Source: Chelatococcus caeni (GTDB lineage Bacteria > Pseudomonadota > Alphaproteobacteria > Rhizobiales > Beijerinckiaceae). Taken from it: DNA of 64,000 nucleotides. Positions within the stretch are counted from its first letter, which is position 1; the number at the start of each line of letters is the position of its first letter. The translations under genes were made by a program, and so were the position numbers. The notes under the pieces are model-generated. The model did no database searches and was not told where the DNA came from. It saw only the letters and a program-made list of their open reading frames with translations. Below, one piece after another: positions 40,588-47,386 of this stretch. The stretch is taken from positions 1,302,001 through 1,366,000 of the forward strand of contig NZ_JACIEN010000001.1 of assembly GCF_014196925.1 (NCBI RefSeq). Reading direction: 5' to 3'.

Positions 40588-42978
40588 CTAGGGCCCGACG
40601 ATGAGCTGGATCCAGGTGTCGAGAAAGCGGGTGCGCTTCAGAGGATCGAGAAAGACGAGAAGTTCCGGGCCGAGCGCGACGGTCTGCCGGATGCTGTCGG
40701 TGCGGCCGGGCGTGAGGGGAGGGCCGGCGCCGATACCGCCGGCCTCCAGCGCCCGGGCGCCGTCGCGGCCCACGATGAGATCGAGCGCGCGCCGGGCGCC
40801 GAAGGGGTTCGGGGCACTGTTGGGAATGGACACCGTCCAGGGCACGGAGACGGTATAGTCCTCGGGCACGACGATCTCGATCGCCGCCCCGCGCGCGATA
40901 GCCGCCTGGGCGGCCGACAGCGGCACGTTGTAGGCGAGGTCGAGCTCGCCGGCCGCCATGGCCTGCAGGAGTTCGCCGGCATGGTCGAAGATGCGCACCT
41001 GCGCGGCGCCGAAGCCGCGGGTCACCCGCCAGAAGAGGGGCGAGCGCAGCGAATCCTGGGCCGCGGCGACATAGCTGACGCTGTCGATGCCGATATTGAC
41101 GAGGCCAACCCGGCCGGACAGGCGCGTCGCCGCTCGCTCCAGCAACTGGGCGAGCGCAATGCGGCTGCGCGGCACCTCGGGGCCGGGCAGGGCATCCTTG
41201 CGCACGACGATCACTGACGGATCGGCCGCGACGGCGAACACCTCGCCGCGCCAGTGGATGGGCGGGTCGCCTCCCGCCGGCTGGGCCGCGTGCGAGATGA
41301 CGTAGCCCTCGTTGGCGAGCTGCACGGCGAGGTCCGGCGACGACAGGAGCAGGAGATCGGGCGAGCTGGCGCCGGCCGCCACGGCGATCACGCCGAGGGC
41401 GGCCTCGGTGGGCAGAACGGCGCGGTAGTCCACCGTCGTGCCGGGATCGTTCGCCTCGATGGCGGCGATCAGCGGCGCCATCTGTTCGGCCGGCGCCGTG
41501 CCGAGGATGGAGAGCTTGGCCTGTGCCGCCGCCTGAAGCGGCAGGAGCGCTGCAACAAGGACGATGGGGAGCGCCAGAGCGATTGCGGTGCCGCCGCCCG
41601 GAGGGCGGGGCCGCTGGTCTGCGAGCGGCAGTCTCACCAAGGCGCACAGGCCGCCGCCCTCGCGCGGGGCGAGCGTCACGTCGCCGCCGCAAGCGCGCGC
41701 CACGGTGCGCGCGATCGGCAGCCCGAGGCCGGAGCCGGGCGTCGTCTCGTCGCCGCGCACGAAGCGCTCGAACACGCGCTCGAGCAGGTCGGCATCGAGG
41801 CCGGGGCCCCGGTCGAGCACCTTGAGCCGCGCTTCGCCGGCGTGGCAGGTGAGGGACACCTCCACCGGGCCCGCAGGGGCATGGACGAGGGCGTTCTCGA
41901 CGAGATTGCGGACCATCTCGCGCAATACGAACGCGTCGCCCCGCACGGGCACGGGTTCGCCATGGCAACCGGCCAGGCGAAGGCGTTGCGCCTGCAGCGG
42001 ATCGATGCGGCGCACGGCCTCCTGCACCGTGGCGGCGAGGTCGACGATGGCGCGCGGCTGCGCTTCGAGCCGGTGCAGGATCGTGGCGTCGCTCAGGATC
42101 TGGCTCGCCAGCACGCTGGCGTTCACCGCATTGACGTGGATGCGGGCCAGCCGCTCGCGCACGCTTCCGTCCGGCGCCTCGTCGAGCGCTACCTCCGACT
42201 GGGCGCGGATGTTGGCGAGCGGTGTGCGCAGCTGGTGGGCGGCATCCGCGGTCACGCGCTTGAGCCCGTCGAGCGTCGAGCCGAGGCGGTCCATGAATTC
42301 GTTGAGCGCGGCGACGAGCGCACGCACCTCGCGTGGCACGGGCCCCCGGATCGGTGCGAGGTCCGACGCCGCACGGCCGCGGATGTCGGCCTCGACCACG
42401 CCGAGGGGCAGGAAGGCGCGCCGCACCGCAAGCCAGATCAGGCAGAAGGCGACGAGTGCCACGGCAAGCGTCGGGAGGAGTGCGTTGCGCGTCAGCTGGC
42501 CGGCGAGCTGCTGGCGAGCCTCCCGGGTTTCTGCGACCAGCACGTCGACCCATCCGCTGCCGCTCGTGCCGGCGTGGTAGCGCGCCACGGCGGCGATCCG
42601 GATGGGCGTGCCGCGATAGACGCTGTCGTGGAGGCGCGGTTCGGGCGTGCTGGCCTGCGGCACCTCGAGCCCGAGCGTCGGCGAGCCGGTGACGAGCCCG
42701 CCGTTCGGCGCCACCACGCGATAGAAGATGCGGTTGAGCCGCGAGGTGCCGAGGATGGCGAAAGCGGCGTAGGGAATGTCGACCGTGACGTCCCCCTCCT
42801 GGATCTCCACGGTATCGGCGATGGACAGGGCCGCGGCGGCGAGCACCCGGTCGAACGCTTCATCCGCGGCACGCACGGCGTAGACGCGGATGGCCATGAA
42901 GAGCAGGAGCCCGATGACGGCGAGCACAGCCGCCGCCCCGGCCATGACGCTGCGGCGGATCGAGCGGTCCTCAGGCAA
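40588..42978 (-). CDS. Sensor histidine kinase fused to a periplasmic substrate-binding protein
   Basis: One 796-residue frame. Residues about 12-32 and 166-186 are membrane helices around a TctE-like periplasmic sensor (2CSK_N type). HisKA has H248 in AAHQLRTPL, and the ATPase has N-box NLVENALVHA, G1 DRGPGL and G2 GSGLGL. The kinase normally ends near residue 452, but here it runs through a Pro/Gly linker into a third hydrophobic helix (about 465-485) and a 310-residue Fe3+/phosphoglycerate-type binding protein (LSILGTAPAEQM to the end). The start TTG overlaps the regulator gene by 8 bp. Predicted topology puts the binding domain in the periplasm. An internal GTG at 41637 could also give a separate binding protein. 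Partner: the response regulator just upstream. Confidence 0.88.
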   Translation of the reverse strand: MPEDRSIRRSVMAGAAAVLAVIGLLLFMAIRVYAVRAADEAFDRVLAAAALSIADTVEIQEGDVTVDIPYAAFAILGTSRLNRIFYRVVAPNGGLVTGSPTLGLEVPQASTPEPRLHDSVYRGTPIRIAAVARYHAGTSGSGWVDVLVAETREARQQLAGQLTRNALLPTLAVALVAFCLIWLAVRRAFLPLGVVEADIRGRAASDLAPIRGPVPREVRALVAALNEFMDRLGSTLDGLKRVTADAAHQLRTPLANIRAQSEVALDEAPDGSVRERLARIHVNAVNASVLASQILSDATILHRLEAQPRAIVDLAATVQEAVRRIDPLQAQRLRLAGCHGEPVPVRGDAFVLREMVRNLVENALVHAPAGPVEVSLTCHAGEARLKVLDRGPGLDADLLERVFERFVRGDETTPGSGLGLPIARTVARACGGDVTLAPREGGGLCALVRLPLADQRPRPPGGGTAIALALPIVLVAALLPLQAAAQAKLSILGTAPAEQMAPLIAAIEANDPGTTVDYRAVLPTEAALGVIAVAAGASSPDLLLLSSPDLAVQLANEGYVISHAAQPAGGDPPIHWRGEVFAVAADPSVIVVRKDALPGPEVPRSRIALAQLLERAATRLSGRVGLVNIGIDSVSYVAAAQDSLRSPLFWRVTRGFGAAQVRIFDHAGELLQAMAAGELDLAYNVPLSAAQAAIARGAAIEIVVPEDYTVSVPWTVSIPNSAPNPFGARRALDLIVGRDGARALEAGGIGAGPPLTPGRTDSIRQTVALGPELLVFLDPLKRTRFLDTWIQLIVGP

Positions 42979-43662: not shown

Positions 43663-43691
43663 ATGACGGTGCGTTGACAGGCTTATGACAG
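43663..43691 (-). promoter_or_regulatory. Three CTGTCAT-like direct repeats, 11-bp period (PHO-box-like)
   Basis: On the minus strand CTGTCAT (43691-43685), CTGTCAA (43680-43674) and CCGTCAT (43669-43663) are each separated by four bases (AAGC, CGCA). This is the architecture of PhoB boxes and of other OmpR-class sites: 7-mers at 11-bp intervals. The array lies between the response-regulator start and phnD, 88 bp from the phnD ATG. A TAGCCTAT at 43703-43710 could serve as a -10 for phnD. Confidence 0.6.
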
Positions 43692-43778: not shown

Positions 43779-44807
43779 ATGATTCGCAACCTATTCCTGA
43801 CGCTGGGCATCACTGCCGTGGCCGCGGCATCCTTCTCTCCCGGTCCGGCCCGGGCCGACGAGTGCGCCAACCGCGGCGAGCTCGACACGCTCTATTGCGA
43901 CGCCGACCGGGACCTCGTGGCCGATGCGCCGACCGATCCCGCCAAGTGGCGCGATCCGTCGGCCCTGGTCTGGGCCTACACCCCGGTCGAGGATCCTGCC
44001 GTCTACGCCAATATCTTCAAGCCGTTCACGGAGCATCTCGAGGCCTGCGTCGGCAAGCGCACCGTCTACTATCCTGCGCAGTCCAACGCCGCCCAGATCG
44101 AGGCGATGCGCTCCGGCCGGCTGCATTTCGCCGGCTTCTCGACGGGGCCGACCGGCTTCGCCGTCAACCTGGCCGGCGCCGTGCCGTTCGCCGCCAAGGG
44201 CGTCGGCGAGCAGGTGCGCGGCTATCAGCTGCTCGCCATCGTCAAGACGTCGAGCCCTTACGAGAAGCTGTCGGACCTCAAGGAAAAGCGGGTGGCGCAT
44301 ACGTCGCCTTCGTCCAACTCGGGCAACCTTGCCCCCCGCGTGCTGTTCCCCGAGGAGGGGCTGACGCCGGAGCAGGACTACAAGCCGCTGATGTCGGGCG
44401 GGCACGACAAGTCGGTGCTCGGCGTCGGCTCGGGCGACTACGACATGGCCGCCGTCGCCTCCGACGTCTTCGAGCGCATGGGCGTGCGCGGCACCGTCAA
44501 GTCCGAGGACTTCCGCGTCATCTACCGCAGCCCGGTGTTCCCGACGTCCTCCTTCGCCCACGCGCACGACCTGAAGCCCGAACTCGCGGCCAAGCTGCGC
44601 GAGTGCTTCTTCTCCTTCCGCTTCACGCCCGAGATGCAGAAGGAGTTCAACGGCGACGACCGCTTCCTGCCCATCACCTACAAGGACGACTGGGCCGTGG
44701 TGCGCGACGTGGCCGAGAAGTCCGGCACGCCCTACAACAAGGCTGCCTACGACGCCGAGGCCAAGCGGGAGGCCGAGGCCCTCGCCAAGCGCAAGCAGCA
44801 GAAGTAA
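43779..44807 (+). CDS. phnD: Phosphate/phosphite/phosphonate ABC transporter substrate-binding protein (PhnD type)
   Basis: A 342-residue periplasmic binding protein, signal peptide to about ARA-D. The PhnD-family core is VWAYTPVEDPAVYANIFKPF, YPAQSNAAQIEAMRSGRLHF and HTSPSSNSGNLAPR (Ser/Thr-rich ligand loop). It starts a rightward transporter operon with phnC and two phnE genes. The C-terminus ends in a Lys/Arg/Glu-rich helix. The ligand is likely phosphonate, phosphite or phosphate, but no C-P lyase or phosphonatase gene is present here. A 13-bp-stem hairpin follows the stop. Confidence 0.92.
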   Translation: MIRNLFLTLGITAVAAASFSPGPARADECANRGELDTLYCDADRDLVADAPTDPAKWRDPSALVWAYTPVEDPAVYANIFKPFTEHLEACVGKRTVYYPAQSNAAQIEAMRSGRLHFAGFSTGPTGFAVNLAGAVPFAAKGVGEQVRGYQLLAIVKTSSPYEKLSDLKEKRVAHTSPSSNSGNLAPRVLFPEEGLTPEQDYKPLMSGGHDKSVLGVGSGDYDMAAVASDVFERMGVRGTVKSEDFRVIYRSPVFPTSSFAHAHDLKPELAAKLRECFFSFRFTPEMQKEFNGDDRFLPITYKDDWAVVRDVAEKSGTPYNKAAYDAEAKREAEALAKRKQQK

Positions 44808-44854: not shown

Positions 44855-44967
44855 CAGCCATGCATCCGCCGGCCTTCGAAAATCGCGCTGCAGACGCGTG
44901 CCGTCGGCGCGGGCAGGGCGCTCTGCGCCGTTTCACCTTTCACGACGATCGTTCCAGGGATCGCCCC

Positions 44968-45765
44968 ATGACACATGCTGCGTCCGCCGCAACGCCCGCC
45001 GAGGGATCGGCCGGCCTTCTCGCCATCCGTCATCTGCGCAAGGAATACCGGGCCGGCCAGCCGGTGCTGAAGGACATCTCGCTCGACATCGAGGGGCGGG
45101 GCGTCACCGCCATCATCGGACCTTCCGGCACCGGCAAGTCGACCCTCATCCGCTGCATCAACCGGCTGGTCGATCCGACCTCGGGCGAGATCTGGTTCGA
45201 AGGCCGCGACCTCGCGCGCCTGCGCGGTGACGCGCTCCGGCTCGCGCGCCGGCGCATCGGCATGGTGTTCCAGGAGTACAATCTCGTCGAGCGGCTCAGC
45301 GTCATCGAGAACGTGCTGTCGGGGCGGCTCGGCTACGTGCCTGCCTGGCGCGCCTTCCTGCGCCGGTTCCCGGCCGACGACGTGGCACGCGCCTTCGACC
45401 TCATCGATGCCGTGGGCCTCGGCGAGGACTTCGCCACGCGGCGGGCCGACCAGCTCTCCGGCGGGCAGCGCCAGCGCGTGGGCATCGCCCGCGCCATCAT
45501 GCAATCGCCCGGCCTGATCCTCGCTGACGAGCCCACGTCCTCGCTGGATCCCAAGACCTCCGTCGAGATCATGGAACTGATGGCGCAGATTTCCCGCGAG
45601 CGCTCCATTCCCATCGTCATCAACATCCACAATGTCGAGCTCGCCCGCCGCTATGCCCAGCGCATCATCGGCATGTCGCGCGGCGAGGTGGTCTATGACG
45701 GCTCGCCTGACGGCCTCGGCGACAGCCACCTGAAGGAGATCTACGGCGGGGAGGACTGGCTATGA
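44968..45765 (+). CDS. phnC: Phosphonate ABC transporter ATP-binding protein
   Basis: A 265-residue ATPase. Motifs are Walker [12 protein letters not shown]-loop [13 protein letters not shown], signature [15 protein letters not shown], Walker [13 protein letters not shown] and switch His INIHNVEL, a combination typical of PhnC. I start it at ATG 44968, preceded by AGGGA; an upstream extension is low-quality sequence. Its stop overlaps the first phnE start (ATGA). Confidence 0.93.
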
Positions 45766-46565
45766 GCGCCCCGGCCGCACCGGGCCGGCTGCGCCCGCCC
45801 GCCTTTCCCGCCAACTGGCCTGCGCGCCTCGCCTGGGCCGGGCTCGTCATCTACACGATCTACGCGACGAGCGTGCTCGACGTCACGCTGGCGCGCTTCA
45901 TCGCCGGGCTCGGCAATGCCGGCCACTTCCTGTCGCGGATGTTCCCGCCGAACATGGCGCCCGACAAGCTGGCGCTCATCTACACGGGCATGGTGGAGAG
46001 CCTGCAGATCGCCGTTCTGGCGACCTTTGCGGGGGTGCTCCTGTCGCTGCCGCTCGGGCTTGCCGCGGCGCGCAACCTCGCTCCGGTGGCGGTCTACGGG
46101 CCGGCGCGGGCCTTCATCGCCATCTGCCGCTCGTTCCACCCGGTGATCGTCGCCATCCTCTTCGTCAAGGCGGTCGGGTTCGGGGCACTCGCCGGCGTGC
46201 TCGCGCTCATCGTCGCCACGATGGGGTTCGTCGCCAAGCTCTTCGCCGAGGTGGTCGAGGAGATGAACCCCAAGCAGGTCGAGGCGGTGCGGGCCACCGC
46301 CGCCCCGTTCCTCAACGTGCTCATCATGGCGGTGTTCCCGCAGGTGATGGCACGCTTCGTCGGCCTCACCGTCTACCAGTTCGATTCCAACCTGCGTAAC
46401 TCCACGATGGTCGGCATCGTCGGCGGCGGCGGCATCGGCGCGCCGCTGTTCACCGCCTATCAGCGCTTCGACTACGACGTCGTCCTCACGATCCTGATCA
46501 TCATCGTCGCCCTCATCATGTTGTGCGAACTGGTGTCGGGCCGGGTGCGGAGGATCTTCCAGTGA
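45762..46565 (+). CDS. phnE: Phosphonate ABC transporter permease
   Basis: A 267-residue permease with about six helices and a PhnE-type cytoplasmic loop ([19 protein letters not shown]). The segment [21 protein letters not shown] is a family hallmark. It is coupled by overlap to phnC before it and to the second phnE after it (GTGA). The two permeases likely form a heterodimer driven by PhnC. Confidence 0.92.
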
Positions 46566-47386
46566 ATGCCCTGTCCCCCGTCACCCAGGCGGCGAAGCCG
46601 CCGCGCGTCTGGCACCGCTTCACGCCGGCCGAGCGCATCGGACGCTCGATGGTCTACGTCCTGAGCGCCATTGCCGTCGTCTGGTCGCTGCGCACCATCG
46701 AGGTCATCCCCGAGTTCCTCTACGATGCTCCGGAGCAGACGGCCGACCTTTTCCGGCGCATGTGGCCGTTCGACTGGGCCTTCTATCCCGAGCAGGTGCA
46801 CGACGCGCTCATCGAGACCTTCCACATCGCCACCCTCGGCACCTTGCTCGCGCTCGTGCTCGCGCTGCCGCTCGCCTTCCTCGCGGCGCGCAACTTCACC
46901 AGGAACCCGGCCCTCAACTGGTTGGCGCAGTTCATCTTCGTGTCCTCGCGCTCGGTCAATTCCCTGATCTGGGCACTGCTCTTCGTCGCCATCTTCGGGC
47001 CCGGGGCGCTGGCCGGTGTCATGTCGATCGCCTTCCGCTCCATCGGCTTCATCGGCAAGCTCTTCAGCGAGGCGCTCGAGGAGGCGCAGAAGGGGCCGGT
47101 CGAGGCCCTGACGGCCACCGGGGCTCCGCGCGCGATGATCCTCGTCAAGGGCTACTGGCCGCAGGTGGAGCCCGCTTTCTGGTCCGTCGCGCTGCTGCGC
47201 TGGGACATCAACATCCGTGAATCGGCGGTGCTCGGCCTCGTGGGTGCGGGCGGCATCGGCGTCGCGCTCGATGCCTCGCTCAACAACCTCTACTGGGACC
47301 AGGTGGGCCTCATCCTCGCCGTGATCTTCAGTGTCGTCGTGGTCACCGAGATCGTGACGTCGTGGCTGCGGGCGCGGCTGATCTGA
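46562..47386 (+). CDS. phnE: Phosphonate ABC transporter permease, second PhnE
   Basis: A 274-residue permease with a PhnE loop (FSEALEEAQKGPVEALTATG) and RWDINIRESAVLGLVGAGGIG. The start is GTG 46562, overlapping the previous stop by four bases. Two phnE genes per operon are common in rhizobial phn-type importers. It ends the operon; a GC-rich hairpin follows. Confidence 0.92.
   Translation: MNALSPVTQAAKPPRVWHRFTPAERIGRSMVYVLSAIAVVWSLRTIEVIPEFLYDAPEQTADLFRRMWPFDWAFYPEQVHDALIETFHIATLGTLLALVLALPLAFLAARNFTRNPALNWLAQFIFVSSRSVNSLIWALLFVAIFGPGALAGVMSIAFRSIGFIGKLFSEALEEAQKGPVEALTATGAPRAMILVKGYWPQVEPAFWSVALLRWDINIRESAVLGLVGAGGIGVALDASLNNLYWDQVGLILAVIFSVVVVTEIVTSWLRARLI

Follow-up and report, generated by a model that had tools for sequence, protein, structure and literature searches.

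A histidine kinase fused to an MctA-type solute-binding protein in Chelatococcus caeni: a probable variant of TctDE/BctDE-like sensors with a predicted internal signal peptidase site

Introduction

In the citrate systems TctDE-TctCBA and Bordetella pertussis BctDE-BctC, a TctD/TctE-type regulator and kinase have the adjacent transporter as their target. The signal reaches the kinase through a binding protein; according to PMC5812351 and PMC9602780, citrate-loaded BctC signals to the kinase BctE. The signaling solute-binding protein (SBP) of these systems is the free transport SBP of the TctC type. We analyzed a 64,000-nucleotide stretch of the Chelatococcus caeni genome (hereafter, the window) that encodes the same types of regulator and kinase, and in which a binding protein would likewise contact the kinase. 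In contrast to BctDE and TctDE, the SBP is here a separate, MctA-type protein joined to the C-terminal end of the kinase, next to a PhnD/PhnCEE importer. A bacterial fusion with an internal signal sequence is known in FbcH, the Bradyrhizobium cytochrome b/c1 precursor, which is cut at that sequence; FbcH, however, belongs to a respiratory complex and not to a sensor, and cleavage of the window protein is a prediction. Among the matches listed in a search of open-licence PMC articles (titles and abstract openings), we recognized neither a kinase-SBP fusion nor a cleaved sensor.

Results

Domain organization of the fused protein

Open reading frames of the window revealed a single uninterrupted frame of 796 residues on the minus strand (42978..40588, TTG start). 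Pfam domains 2CSK_N, HisKA, HATPase_c and SBP_bac_11 follow one another in the protein, all above cut-offs (Table 1); the first three are combined as in TctDE/BctDE-type kinases. Across the aligned fused proteins (n=24), H248 of the AHQLRTP motif and the columns N358/N362, D389/G391/G393 and G415/G417/G419 were invariant; we take these to be the H, N and G boxes of the kinase. An AlphaFold2 model of the C-terminal 322 residues (pLDDT 85.6, pTM 0.83) showed a complete two-lobed binding protein. The sequence-only reading, which had described one open frame encoding a kinase plus a complete binding protein and had named these domain families for a search, is borne out in both respects.

Table 1. 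Features of the kinase-SBP locus and its surroundings in the window
Feature	Position	Strand	Evidence
TctE-like histidine kinase part, residues 1-453 (TM1, 2CSK_N, TM2, HisKA, HATPase_c)	41620..42978	-	Pfam, NCBIfam, alignment, AlphaFold
2CSK_N	residues 19-162		Pfam 7.6e-37
HisKA	residues 240-298		Pfam 5e-8
HATPase_c	residues 348-453		Pfam 2e-22
Junction, residues 454-487: Arg/Pro/Gly linker, hydrophobic core ~464-479, then PLQAAAQA	41518..41619	-	
MctA-type periplasmic solute-binding part, residues 488-796 + stop	40588..41517	-	SBP_bac_11, phmmer, Foldseek
SBP_bac_11	residues 494-748		Pfam 1.1e-8
TctD-like OmpR-family response regulator, 228 aa	42971..43657	-	Response_reg 1.4e-28, Trans_reg_C 3.1e-19
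Direct repeat TGACGG-N5-TGACAG-N5-TGACAG	43664..43691	+	
PhnD-type transport SBP, divergent from regulator	43779..44807	+	Phosphonate-bd 1.6e-55
PhnC-like ABC ATPase, start unrefined	44860..45765	+	ORF; name by reading sequence
PhnE-like permease	45762..46565	+	ORF; name by reading sequence
Second PhnE-like permease, start unrefined	46523..47386	+	ORF; name by reading sequence

The SBP might also, or mainly, be translated from a separate start codon within the kinase frame, with the long protein as a by-product, and GTG 41637 had been suggested as such a start. Some ATG, GTG or TTG lies within the 22 codons before the hydrophobic core in 38 of 49 fused genes (raw count). However, an ATG is present there in only 15 of the 49, an SD-like stretch precedes any start codon there in 8, and by eye no SD lies at normal spacing ahead of GTG 41637. 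On these counts and this sequence we rejected an internal start as the main source of the SBP; they also speak against GTG 41637 as an additional start, and we consider internal initiation quite improbable.

Distribution and evolution of the fusion

Homologous loci were collected with the SBP part as query. The family sample gave matches in 36 of its 99 genomes (E up to 1e-3), the order sample in 112 of 397 (1e-15) and the class sample in 25 of 385 (1e-20); three more families, searched at 1e-25, had matches in 98 of 136, 4 of 5 and 2 of 3 genomes. The 156 loci with an SBP match comprised 119 distinct ones, or 118 after removal of L001, a duplicate of the window. An in-frame fusion was read in 49 distinct genes, the window included (7 family and 12 genus codes; one genus code supplied 31 of the 49). 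Kinase and SBP were split in 41 distinct loci, and in 28 of the 118 no kinase lay just upstream of the SBP on the same strand. Because the sampled loci are mostly best-scoring matches, the ratio 49:41 is no frequency estimate. Among named genomes, in which an SBP could be scored at 16 of the 80 loci fetched, the fusion was present in Devosia naphthalenivorans, Azospirillum canadense and Consotaella salsifontis (L188-L190), and 13 further loci, including those of Xanthomonas, Stenotrophomonas and Pseudovibrio, were split. A first scan of the named genomes with a single protein as query gave no match.

The split versions are regulator-kinase-SBP operons, found also in Achromobacter, with the same three parts in the same order as in the window; however, their SBP is encoded by a gene of its own and carries its own signal peptide. 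C. caeni itself carries such a paralogue, which faces tctCBA (G000:C1:133745-137000; L053 11123-15008). The kinase stop and SBP start overlapped in 37 of 38 scored split loci, by exactly 4 bases in 25 (38 of the 41 could be scored, with SBP starts assigned by a simple rule). Judged by the kinase, the nearest split relative is L153 (60% identity), which has an ATGA overlap and its own signal peptide. This peptide begins MKRRSFLSLML and is Tat-like by eye. In two other split systems, L112 and L113, the SBPs have a lipobox-like Cys (LAAC and LAGC) and are perhaps membrane-anchored lipoproteins. With the two genes overlapping in this way, a small indel would be enough to join their frames and make the signal peptide internal; the fusion may have arisen in this way.

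On an SBP tree of 118 rows (quick method, long branches flagged), six changes between fused and split states were needed, three of them forced by well-supported branches. A fused-only group comprised 37 rows (support 92). The window gene lay apart from it in a well-supported set of eight (5 fused, 3 split), hereafter the window clade. Within the window's genus, 3 of 4 genomes had an SBP match; those in the two other genomes, and a second match in the window's own genome, fell in the split part of the tree. Since the nearest kin of the window gene belong to other families, acquisition by horizontal transfer is possible.

The frequency of split homologues and the presence of a gene of the window's type in 1 of 4 genomes of its genus might point to a sequencing or assembly error, or to a fresh loss of a stop codon, which the sequence-only reading had allowed for. 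However, the 49 distinct fused genes, which rule out a frame error as the cause, the spread over 12 genus codes, the three named genomes and the fused-only group on the tree leave such explanations practically no probability; nor are the homologues always two genes, as that reading had also considered. The C. caeni gene is a real, recurrent and conserved kinase-SBP fusion.

The junction between kinase and SBP

The third hydrophobic segment that had been claimed to lie between kinase and SBP is present, and a periplasmic placement of the SBP is plausible. A signal peptidase I site is predicted after A487 (or A485). Positions -1, -3 and -6 are those that matter for this enzyme. In an unanchored alignment of the 49 fused junctions, -1 was Ala in 42 of 47 (H 0.49), -6 was Pro in 33 or Gly in 7 of 46 (H 1.39), -3 was A, V, S or T in 40 of 41 (H 1.48), and -2 was free (H 2.86); L049 and L050 have Pro at -3. 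By our reading of the column statistics, -1, -6 and -3 ranked first to third in conservation among the 33 columns between 40 and 100 that contained at least 40 letters; some inflation of this ranking is likely, since aligners stack identical residues and the rows come mostly from one clade. Mean hydrophobicity (best 19 residues) was 1.86 for the fused junctions (n=49) and 1.77 for the SBP signals of split and kinase-less loci (n=69; p=0.27), vs. 2.99 for TM1 (n=48) and 2.50 for TM2 (n=49), from which the junction differed with p 5e-17 and 1e-16, respectively; these p-values treat related rows as independent. The window's own core has a value of 2.36, between the signal-peptide and TM2 means; 16% of the fused proteins, this one included, exceed 2.2.

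Simple presence of a cleavage motif was dropped as evidence because shuffles gave nearly as much: AxA was present in 30 of 49 fused junctions (shuffle mean 23.4, largest 32) and [AVST]xA in 40 of 49 (shuffle mean 36.1). The control consisted of Ala-rich shuffles, and some junction stretches were shortened. A matrix for cleavage sites, trained on 68 free signals, was likewise discarded as support. It is fitted to homologous signals, and the fused junctions scored far below these free signals (mean 3.49 vs. 10.28, the latter for its own training set) and barely above shuffled sequences (mean 2.73, AUC 0.57), which counts against cleavage, although they scored above TM1 ends (AUC 0.85). AlphaFold pLDDT was <50 for residues 456-483, where alignment rows are few; this fits a cut and a tether alike.

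The sequence-only reading had proposed an uncleaved three-helix receptor, in which the SBP stays tethered beside the kinase by TM3 and senses in cis. Some SBPs are known as fusions with membrane parts of ABC transporters, and both the fairly hydrophobic TM3 of the window and the cleavage-motif scores hardly above shuffles favor such a tether. On the other hand, TM3 hydrophobicity is signal-peptide-like across the family, and the -1/-3/-6 positions are kept although a tether does not need them. The third segment itself stands, and the permanent tether is weakened; we regard it as possible but doubtful. Family-wide, the segment resembles a cleavable signal peptide, and that of the window is ambiguous. 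Cutting of a precursor into kinase and free SBP is favored over the tether with a probability of a little over one half. The fusion is probably a variant of the SBP-dependent TctDE/BctDE-like sensors with a predicted internal signal peptidase site.

Relatives and ligand of the SBP

The nearest solved structures were Mg-citrate-binding MctA (PDB 7F6x; Foldseek TM 0.87, profile E 6.5e-79), presumably from Thermus thermophilus, and 3C9H from Agrobacterium (TM 0.84, profile E 2e-100; phmmer 3.4e-30 with the window SBP part). By fold and sequence subfamily, the SBP belongs with the MctA-type binding proteins. It had been labeled Fe3+/phosphoglycerate-type; MctA and 3C9H are closer than the Fe3+ and sugar-phosphate binders.

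We compared six positions mutated in MctA entries; these were taken from PDB titles, their ligand role is presumed, and they were mapped by hand through the phmmer match. D28, S164 and Y221 differed in all eight members of the window clade, and S79 and T199 in most. Asp at position 28 was found in 0/8 clade members vs. 105/110 other proteins, Ser at 79 in 1/8 (the window itself) vs. 105/110, Ser at 164 in 0/8 vs. 102/110, Ser or Thr at 199 in 2/8 vs. 104/110, and Tyr at 221 in 0/8 vs. 109/110. The window residues at D28, S79, S164, T199 and Y221 are P, S, D, A and A. Because three mapped positions are changed throughout the clade, citrate is unlikely as the ligand of the window SBP and was rejected. 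The ligand is probably whatever the PhnD-type importer carries; a phosphonate-like anion is a guess.

Regulator, importer and promoter repeat

The end of the regulator gene overlaps the kinase start by 8 bases. The best NCBIfam match of the regulator was TctD (PRK15479, 3.8e-58), with 196.7 bits against a cut-off of 337; because this is below the equivalog threshold, we call it TctD-like and not TctD. The PhnD-type SBP scored above the cut-off of TIGR01098 and below that of TIGR03431 (PhnD). No tctCBA adjoins the kinase-SBP gene of the window; phnD-C-E-E is there instead. TctA was encoded within the fetched flanks of 40 of 52 genome-search loci outside the window clade (hand count), fused and split alike, and near 4 of 15 named loci outside the clade; it was absent within ~4 kb in nine of these, from Xanthomonas to Vibrio (L192-L200). 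A divergent phnD was present in 8 of 8 window-clade loci and in Pseudovibrio L191, vs. 0 of 52 other genome-search loci. It is followed by PhnC-PhnE-PhnE in the window and by an Fbp-type permease in the seven other clade members (names by reading). Together with the altered pocket residues and the promoter repeat described below, the divergent phnD suggests for the window subclade a TctDE/BctDE-like three-component sensor that has probably been switched to a PhnD-type importer. In L086-L088 and L179-L185, a PhnD-type SBP gene precedes an Fbp-type two-domain permease and an ATPase, an unusual pairing compared with PhnCEE of the window.

The promoter between the regulator and phnD contains three half-sites in succession, including an exact 17-bp double repeat at 43675-43691. 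All eight phnD-linked promoters compared carried TGACAG-N5-TGACAG, five of them exactly and three with a single substitution. With up to two mismatches, the window as a whole had 2 matches against a chance mean of 2.88, i.e., no enrichment; the case for the repeat therefore rests on position and conservation. With up to one mismatch, the C. caeni genome had 16 sites vs. 7 for a reversed control pattern. Of 73 regulators scanned (loci with a strong response regulator match and at least 120 bases upstream), 28 had an upstream site in which at least 11 of the 12 bases matched, and in each case 0 of 100 simple shuffles scored as high. Many of these regulators were tct-linked; the large fused clade had no repeat.

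A model for the sensor

We propose, with a probability of roughly 0.57, a TctDE/BctDE-like three-component sensor in which translation yields the kinase and its dedicated sensing SBP as a single polypeptide; this would be cut at an internal signal peptide, and kinase and SBP would drive the phnD importer. The third hydrophobic segment would be the former signal peptide of the SBP, now internal, entering the membrane N-in/C-out. Cleavage by signal peptidase I probably follows the A-x-A motif; it would leave a short membrane tail on the kinase and release the SBP to the periplasm at 1:1. Ligand-loaded SBP would act on the periplasmic 2CSK_N domain of the kinase, in the way that BctC carrying citrate acts on BctE. 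Once phosphorylated, the TctD-like regulator would then bind TGACAG-N5-TGACAG and switch on the divergent phnD-phnC-phnE-phnE importer. We give even odds to the broader proposal of a widespread precursor-type sensor, made as one chain with 1:1 synthesis, inserted by the internal signal peptide of its co-receptor and cut, whose fused and split forms interchanged several times and one branch of which was rewired from citrate-type to PhnD-type import.

That the kinase and SBP genes are fused is evidence, in the Rosetta-stone sense, for a joint function of these SBPs and the neighboring kinase, in split operons as well. If the chain is cut, bacteria would have in it a rare case of a precursor-type sensor, and SBP signaling to TctE-type kinases would become directly testable; if it is uncut, it would be a natural one-piece periplasmic nutrient sensor.

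The TGACAG repeat presumably also fits the PHO box, and PhoB may bind it instead of or besides the TctD-like regulator. Exact repeats were found at three places in the C. caeni genome: in the window promoter, ahead of the split paralogue, and in front of the gene for a UgpB-like glycerol-3-phosphate binding protein (L270, G000:C3:587566-587582; name by reading), the last of which suggests overlap with the PHO box.
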